Below are positions 56,493 through 57,221 of a stretch of DNA of 64,000 bases, one piece after another; within the stretch, counting starts at the first letter, position 1; each line of letters starts with the position of its first letter. Position numbers and translations under genes: made by a program. This stretch comes from Fimbriimonadaceae bacterium (GTDB lineage Bacteria > Armatimonadota > Fimbriimonadia > Fimbriimonadales > Fimbriimonadaceae), in assembly GCA_026129685.1 (NCBI GenBank), contig JAHCHO010000010.1, forward strand, positions 1 to 64,000. The letters are read 5' to 3'. Below the pieces are notes generated by a model that made no database searches, was not told the origin of the DNA, and saw only the letters and a list, made by a program, of their open reading frames with translations.

Positions 56493-56498
56493 ATCATA
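56493..56498 (-). promoter_or_regulatory. -10-like TATGAT before metF
   Basis: TATGAT, 11 nt, ATG on the minus strand. It lies at the last codons of the DUF559 gene. Confidence 0.45.
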
Positions 56499-57177
56499 CC
56501 TGGCGGTTCCCATTCCCCTCCTCGGGAGGGGTGGCCGTCAGGCCGGGGTGGTTCCCGTTCCCCTCCTCGGGAGGGGTAGCCGTCAGGCCGGGGTGGTCCC
56601 CGTTCCCCTCCCTCGGAGGGGTGGCCGTCAGGCCGGGGTGGTTCCCGTTCCCCTCCTCGCGAGGGGTGGCCGTCAGGCCGGGGTGGTTCCCGTTCCCCTC
56701 CCCCGGAGGGGTGGCCGTCAGGCCGGGGTGGTTCCCATTCCCCTCCCCCGAAGGGGTGGCCGTCAGGCCGGGGTGGTTCCCGTTCCCCTCCTCGCGAGGG
56801 CTGGCCGTCAGGCCGGGGTGGTTTCTCAGATACGCCACCACACCCTCCAGGTTTTGCAGGACTTCGCCGACCGGAACCCGGATCACCGTCAGCCCCAACT
56901 CCTGCAGGTAGGCGTCGCGCCGCCGATCATGGCTCTCGCGGCCTTCGTGGGAGGGTCCGTCCAACTCGATGACGACCGACTTCTCCGCGCAGAAGAAGTC
57001 CACAATGTAGTTTCCAATGATCTTCTGGCGGTCGAAGTCCAGCCCGTTCAGTTGGTTGCGCTTAAGTTGGTTCCACATGAGGGCTTCGTGCAACATGCCC
57101 GCCTTGCGCAACTCCTTCGCCCGCGCTCTTAGCTGAGGGTTGTAAGGCAGGGCCCGGTACCGCTTTGTCTTTCTCAT
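56494..57177 (-). CDS. DUF559 (Vsr-like fold) nuclease fused to a palindromic-repeat tail
   Basis: A 227-residue protein. Residues 1-120 form a DUF559 domain ([39 protein letters not shown] with Asp60, Glu71 and Asp73 as candidate metal ligands, then [22 protein letters not shown]). This fold is related to the Vsr and restriction-type PD-(D/E)XK endonucleases. Residues 119-224 are seven copies of a 15-residue unit ([15 protein letters not shown]), written by the tandem 45-bp DNA repeat. An inverted copy of the repeat lies 4 nt upstream of the ATG. SD-like GGGGTGG sits at the edge of that copy. It separates metF from ahcY. Confidence 0.88.
56506..56820 (-). repeat. Seven tandem 45-bp palindrome-bearing repeats
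   Basis: Seven units, each exactly 45 bp, beginning 56506, 56551, 56596, 56641, 56686, 56731 and 56776. Each has two stem-loops: CCCCTC-core-GAGGGG, whose core varies (CTCGG, CCTCG, CTCGC, CCCCG) mostly preserving pairing, and GGCC-GTCA-GGCC. The unit is a multiple of three, so the array stays open as protein. Compensating-type changes in the hairpin core suggest the structure matters. Confidence 0.95.
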
Positions 57178-57181
57178 CGGA

Positions 57182-57221
57182 CCACCCCGGCCTTCGGCCA
57201 CCCCTCCAAAAGGAGGGGAAT
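57182..57221 (+). repeat. Single inverted copy of the 45-bp repeat upstream of the DUF559 gene
   Basis: CCACCCCGGCC-TTC-GGCC-ACCCCTCC-AAAA-GGAGGGG-AAT: same two stem-loops with different loops (TTC, AAAA), in opposite orientation to the tandem array. The DUF559 coding region is therefore bracketed by inverted copies. Confidence 0.9.

Follow-up and report, generated by a model that had tools for sequence, protein, structure and literature searches.

A DUF559 nuclease gene between inverted two-hairpin palindromes as a probable member of a family of nuclease-encoding mobile elements

The window analysed here (the whole stretch of 64,000 nucleotides from a Fimbriimonadaceae bacterium) carries a DUF559 nuclease gene that lies between short palindromic units of opposite orientation. 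We think it probable that this is an autonomous copy of a family of palindrome-bounded, nuclease-encoding mobile elements, which have the layout inward unit, DUF559 gene, inverted unit or units and in which DUF559 would play the driving role. Comparison between genomes demonstrates, at the level of sequence, the boundary role of the units, their mobility, their frame compatibility and the existence of deleted derivatives.

The gene (PF04480; 56494..57177, minus strand) was delimited by its ORF, a match to the PF04480 profile and a start codon shared with homologues; it is the only DUF559 gene in this genome (G000). It sits between metF (55612..56481, minus strand) and ahcY (57272..58546, plus strand), two ORFs outside the element, so the neighbourhood given in the initial annotation is correct. 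Both other genomes of the genus that were compared (G001 and G002) have these genes at 60–61% and 80% identity, respectively, and in the same divergent arrangement, but with a gap of only ~47 bp and no DUF559 between them, while the gap measures 817 bp in the window. The empty gap in both same-genus genomes indicates an insertion of ~770 bp in the window, in agreement with the earlier proposal that the gene had inserted here. Its approximate extent is 56482..57262 (no strand assigned), the relatives being too diverged for exact ends.

The 3' end repeat of the element is an array of seven palindromic units at 56505..56823, oriented on the plus strand, opposite to the gene, and read as a protein tail. 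Tandem Repeats Finder (TRF) reported a period of 45 bp with 7.1 copies, 92% matches and a score of 538, and a covariance model of the unit, which we used for the genome scans, placed the copies at 56512-56553, 56557-56598, 56602-56643, 56647-56688, 56692-56733, 56737-56778 and 56782-56823. The description as seven exact 45-bp units thus holds for length and period but not for sequence, since the units differ from one another, above all in hairpin 1, in the bases of its loop and stem. The 5' end repeat is, as had been noticed before, a single inverted unit just ahead of the start codon (57180..57221, minus strand; covariance model match with E 2.4e-13 and DNA fold). It ends ~3 nt upstream of the ATG and forms the hairpins CCCCTCC/GGAGGGG and GGCC/GGCC. 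Two further tandem-repeat stretches in the window, at 43038-43140 and 2230-2346, have periods of 15/45 bp and 18/33 bp and are probably coding.

Both hairpins of the window units are predicted to form in single-stranded DNA (-11.8 to -13.5 kcal/mol). The fold z-score is only about -2 for these units because the sequence is rich in G+C; it is -3.4 for one homologous unit. At other loci, the unit takes the form ATTCCCCTCCnnnGGAGGGGTG-stem-loop-GGGGTGGT. An alignment of 70 units showed that hairpin 1 is nearly invariant and that the stem of hairpin 2 changes on both sides, with a covariation score of 0.187 against 0.060 for shuffled alignments (0 of 500 shuffles reached it). The two stem-loops per unit with mostly preserved pairing, which the initial annotation had described, are therefore borne out. 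The second pair of stem 2 is non-standard in 29 of the 70 units, often as a G-A opposition in units with a long stem; we may speculate that a Vsr-like enzyme would naturally recognise such a mismatch near the foot of the stem. Tandem spacings elsewhere were 39, 42, 48, 54 or 60 bp, multiples of three in 21 out of 21 cases, and the 45 bp of the window follow the same rule, as the initial annotation had pointed out for its unit.

Counted from the ATG that is conserved in homologues, the window protein has 227 aa, and its start agrees with the N-terminus MRxTxxY in an alignment of 47 DUF559 proteins. The DUF559 profile matched residues 16-116 (E 2e-30, 105.3 bits against a curated cut-off of 20.6). 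Residues 1-118 make up the folded, catalytic domain (56824..57177, minus strand, from the same alignment), and the tail from about residue 119 to 227 is encoded by the repeat array. In the AlphaFold (AF2) model, block pLDDT values of 92-98 extend across most of residues 11-120; values below ~60 mark the tail as disordered. E31, R50, Q51, D60, E71, D73 and D84 are invariant among the 47 proteins and H77 is nearly so. A structure search retrieved NGO0050 (3HRL, E 2e-7), the homing endonuclease I-Bth0305I (3R3P, E 7.6e-4) and Vsr (1CW0, E 0.02). The TM-score was 0.74 on the target for I-Bth0305I, to which the sequence match is weak (E 0.025), and 0.47 for the more distant Vsr. These matches to solved members, together with the conserved acidic and histidine residues, place the protein in the EDxHD/Vsr-type PD-(D/E)XK fold. 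The relationship to Vsr suggested earlier is thus right as to the superfamily fold, but the fold is nearer to that of I-Bth0305I.

A scan of a genome collection with the domain yielded 80 loci at 55–76% identity, 78 after removal of duplicates. This survey started from the DUF559 gene, so it measures how many genes have units rather than how many units have a gene, and many of the genomes are MAGs. An inward '+' unit was present within 300 bp upstream in 70 of the 78 window-like loci and a '-' unit downstream in 60; 55 loci had both. On the same contigs, unit density was 4.66/kb near the gene and 0.042/kb more than 1 kb away, a 112-fold difference. The 3' unit starts 12–13 nt past the end of the domain in 29 loci, which means that the last codons of the gene (NHPALxGTPPEEGN and similar) are encoded by the unit. 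The same unit-DUF559-unit layout thus recurs in ~78 loci from at least 16 phyla, which upholds the nuclease-repeat pair of the initial annotation. The gene tree mixes phyla: one strongly supported clade joins Planctomycetota, Nitrospirota, Pseudomonadota and Myxococcota, in a tree of little resolution (114 columns). Dyadobacter jejuensis has three tandem DUF559 pieces (L101, 6001-7005); units lie between them, and 333 bp separate the last two. This arrangement suggests a unit-mediated duplication.

One might ask whether the palindromes are simply G+C-rich low-complexity sequence that happens to fold, given the composition of the window and its z-scores of about -2. Of 101 relatives of the window, however, 92 lack units altogether, and units also occur in sequence of 43–58% G+C. 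The nine relatives with units include all three that carry a window-like DUF559. Positional enrichment and the compensatory changes in stem 2 led us to reject chance or composition, for which we see next to no probability. Carriage by phages or plasmids was likewise rejected. Plasmid relatives above 60% identity were not found, and a BLAST search of plasmids for the unit gave no match, with filtering that may hide short units. A close viral relative was found only once (L283/L369, 64–66% identity).

About half of the genes upstream of window-like DUF559 belong to restriction-modification (R-M) systems (HsdS 15/58, HSDR_N 7/58, type ISP 3 and N6_N4_Mtase 3 in the neighbourhoods L039-L117); genes downstream include RhuM, Fic and AAA_13. 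This may be due to a preference of insertion, to horizontal transfer of the two together or to a functional tie. If it were a functional tie, this DUF559 branch would work with R-M systems and the palindromes would be regulatory hairpins or recombination junk. A precedent could be seen in the Caulobacter DUF559 protein named VsrA, which is functionally tied to a cytosine methyltransferase and cytosine methylation (PMC12907096); this is a different proposed role, in another branch of the family. The window copy, however, lies between metF and ahcY, others are found inside queA, beside terC and elsewhere, and the inserts inside hsdR keep their units and reading frame just as those in queA do. 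A comparison with the PADLOC defence models matched 0 families, and regulatory hairpins would leave in-frame inserts and deleted derivatives unexplained. We regard an accessory role in defence as rather improbable.

Palindromes also accompany more distant DUF559 genes. Among genes of the same phylum at 33–45% identity, strong inverted repeats across the gene (Smith-Waterman score of at least 36) occurred in 15 of 27 cases but in only 1 of 148 controls (p 1.4e-13), and in most cases these palindromes differ from the window unit. Plasmid-borne DUF559 genes of Deinococcus, Sphingomonas and Pseudanabaena are flanked by inverted palindromes as well. On Sphingomonas parapaucimobilis plasmids (L236, L241), DUF559 genes bounded by inverted repeats lie within operons, one between sufB and sufC and another between two transhydrogenase subunit genes. 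On the Pseudanabaena plasmid pPg_02 (L237), the gene is inside one very long ORF with ~100-bp inverted palindromic blocks on each side. At two other loci (L234, L235), DUF559 adjoins DUF1156 genes. No flanking repeats were found at the DUF559 genes of N. gonorrhoeae, E. coli, Sinorhizobium and one phage. In the open-access literature, subscription literature being outside the search, we found no paper linking DUF559 or YcjD to palindromic repeats.

Units are not confined to the neighbourhood of the gene. The covariance model detected them in 53 of 53 genomes that have window-like loci or belong to the genus of the window, with 2–118 per genome. The window's own genome has 11, eight at the locus and one each at C13:403156, C13:403218 and C1:341366; a simpler consensus pattern applied to the same genome found the seven array units only. 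The two on C13 (L148, C13:403156-403258) belong to a short degenerate array, and L149 is the unit on C1. Confinement to this one gene, which the initial annotation had said would speak against a nuclease-repeat pair, is thus not what the genomes present. The two other genomes of the genus have units and only distant DUF559 genes, and all three units of G016 are at its DUF559 gene. The match between dispersed and gene-flanking units of the same genome is only modest (combined p 0.003).

The clearest dispersed copies are those of Laspinema (G136), which has one DUF559 gene. The 5' leader and start region of this gene have 13 matches in the genome, one being the gene itself and 12 dispersed. All nine '+ -' pairs examined contain the leader and start of the gene, with scores of 55-84 where shuffled sequences reached at most 27, and they are bounded by + and - units oriented as around the gene. 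By their sequence, these copies are internally deleted, MITE-like derivatives. Derivatives with internal deletions are typical of elements with ends that are acted on in trans. Such a derivation is clear in Laspinema only; in short '+ -' pairs at other loci, the inner sequence is unrelated to the gene or overlaps the leader itself.

Two relatives, G026 with 25 dispersed units and G029 with 18, lack a DUF559 gene of any kind. Many of these units are part of longer repeats of ~190 bp, some of them in tandem (L150-L162). The initial annotation had counted relatives that keep the array and lack the nuclease against its proposal, and these two genomes are in part such a case, which also occurs with REPs lacking RAYT. 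So many units without DUF559 suggest that units outlive a resident nuclease gene or move without one nearby, as REPs do without RAYT. In ten viral contigs (L361-L370), units occur as singles or inverted dimers; they flank a DUF559 gene in one (L369), and the other nine lack it.

Such observations, and the many units far from DUF559 in unit-rich genomes, are what would be expected if some other machinery moved REP- or MITE-like units and DUF559 were merely carried between two of them. The Y1 transposase of the RAYT family (PF01797) was absent from 12 of 24 genomes searched, including G000, G056/G113 and Laspinema, and we rejected it as the mobiliser since unit-rich genomes are among those without it. 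A mere passenger would also not be expected to have units facing inwards on both sides in at least 16 phyla or to retain invariant catalytic residues. A chance association would not explain why other DUF559 branches have palindromes of their own, and the concentration of all units of G016 at its gene speaks in the same direction. A passenger role for DUF559 therefore seems unlikely to us.

Some copies are located inside conserved genes. QueA is normally ~350 aa long but reaches 480–543 aa in several small alphaproteobacterial genomes, in which one of two loops has received an in-frame insertion of DUF559 together with its units. Other alphaproteobacterial QueA proteins carry units alone, in frame at the same loop, and the loops are empty in sister genomes. 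The filled queA was the only copy of this gene found in G143. Comparison of empty and filled QueA showed that several loop residues differ at the insertion sites (loop replacement) and revealed no clear target-site duplication. In HsdR, the in-frame insertion lies between the HSDR_N and SWI2/SNF2 parts, and further in-frame inserts were found in type ISP methylases, an N6/N4 methylase and HsdS; the insert forms one open frame with its host gene. In our reading of the sequence, a lipoyl-synthase-like ORF has one copy (L112) fused to its start. We rejected an intragenic position as the general rule for dispersed units, only 5 of 75 sampled in G138, Laspinema and G145 being embedded in long ORFs. 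In-frame insertion is a tolerated minority mode.

The two QueA loops have been used recurrently. Loop B is occupied by window-type elements in L104 and L200. In L199 (G180:C26), it holds, in frame, a DUF559 gene of another branch with an unrelated palindrome (CAACCCCGCCCTTG...). Repeated hits of the same loops (suggestive only), once by another branch with other palindromes, and empty and filled alleles in sister genomes are also reminiscent of homing, and the nearest characterised fold is that of a homing endonuclease. DUF559 could then be a homing endonuclease of the free-standing type, and repair of the cut would bring its gene into unit pairs or loop sites that already exist, with the units as target or boundary sequences rather than transposon ends. 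We doubt that this is the case. At almost every filled QueA and HsdR site the gene has brought its units along, and the empty alleles have none. A single set of units occurs at targets as unrelated as metF-ahcY, QueA, HsdR and a type ISP methylase, and the Laspinema derivatives retain both units along with the start of the gene.

We therefore favor the mobile-element reading, in which the two-hairpin units would be the ends of the element, the 3' unit usually being fused to the end of the gene and encoding its last codons. From the fold (NGO0050 and I-Bth0305I, then Vsr), the invariant acidic residues and the absence of RAYT, we infer that DUF559 recognises and cuts the unit and thereby drives movement. 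The form recognised would probably be a hairpin or cruciform, read by way of its covarying second stem and two conserved segments, GGGGTG and GGGGTGGT. DUF559 would then cut the unit or the target, and repair or replication would give rise to further copies of the unit-bounded DNA elsewhere. The enzyme could also move single or paired units and deleted copies in trans, as RAYT does with REPs. Because spacings between units are multiples of three and stops are missing from most frames, insertions in genes and growth of the array as a tail would be tolerated.

A wider and more tentative idea, plausible but in our estimate somewhat short of an even chance, is that DUF559 as a whole consists of palindrome-mobilising enzymes, each branch with its own two-hairpin repeat as cognate end. 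Such enzymes would join DDE and HUH transposases and intron homing systems as another kind of bacterial mobiliser. They would edit proteins by placing cassettes that are in frame and poor in stops, and that may or may not include the nuclease domain, into loops of conserved enzymes. DUF559 is a widespread nuclease family of 'unknown function', and a pairing with diverse palindromes, if true, would give it a biological role. It would also tell us where the orphan short repeats of bacteria lacking RAYT come from, and how an element with nothing but a nuclease can be maintained as one gene copy and many short derivatives. Conserved enzymes such as QueA and HsdR would then offer naturally occurring examples of domains inserted in frame. 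The model is directly testable with a protein of 120 residues and a DNA of 42 nt.

Among known systems, the Vsr mismatch nickase (1CW0, 1VSR) and Caulobacter VsrA share the superfamily fold, but Vsr is the more distant structural match and the window has no mismatch-repair context. I-Bth0305I (EDxHD/Vsr-like, PDB 3R3P) has the same fold and is likewise a selfish insertion into conserved genes. It is, however, intron-associated (its PDB name is 'Mobile intron protein'), whereas the DUF559 insertion stays in frame and the gene is bounded by inverted palindromes. The Laspinema copies, which retain part of the gene and the end repeat on either side, resemble the MITEs of an autonomous transposon, but their parent gene codes for a DUF559 nuclease instead of a known transposase. 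Rickettsia palindromic elements (RPEs) are similar in that a frame-compatible palindrome is inserted in frame in coding genes, here QueA, HsdR and type ISP; this is a likeness only, and we do not classify the units as RPEs. RPE units are larger, and no nuclease gene is known to be associated with them, whereas the present unit is tied to DUF559 and occurs in many phyla.

A close parallel is with REP/REPIN-RAYT systems. In both cases, short palindromic units occur in inverted pairs, as singles, pairs and arrays, and many are dispersed; there is usually one unit-flanked enzyme gene per genome, and some genomes have units without the enzyme. The GTAG/CGTC tag of REPs has no corresponding position in the unit consensus ATTCCCCTCCTnTGGAGGGGTGGCC...GGACGGGGTGGT. 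Unlike a REP, the unit consists of two hairpins, and the gene-bearing insertion can lie in frame inside host ORFs. The enzyme beside the units is also of a different kind, a PD-(D/E)XK nuclease (DUF559) instead of the HUH Y1 tyrosine transposase RAYT (TnpA-REP). The comparative data support the REP-RAYT-like logic with a different enzyme that the initial annotation had proposed, and by analogy the element family may be viewed as a nuclease counterpart of the REP/RAYT repeat-transposase pairs.
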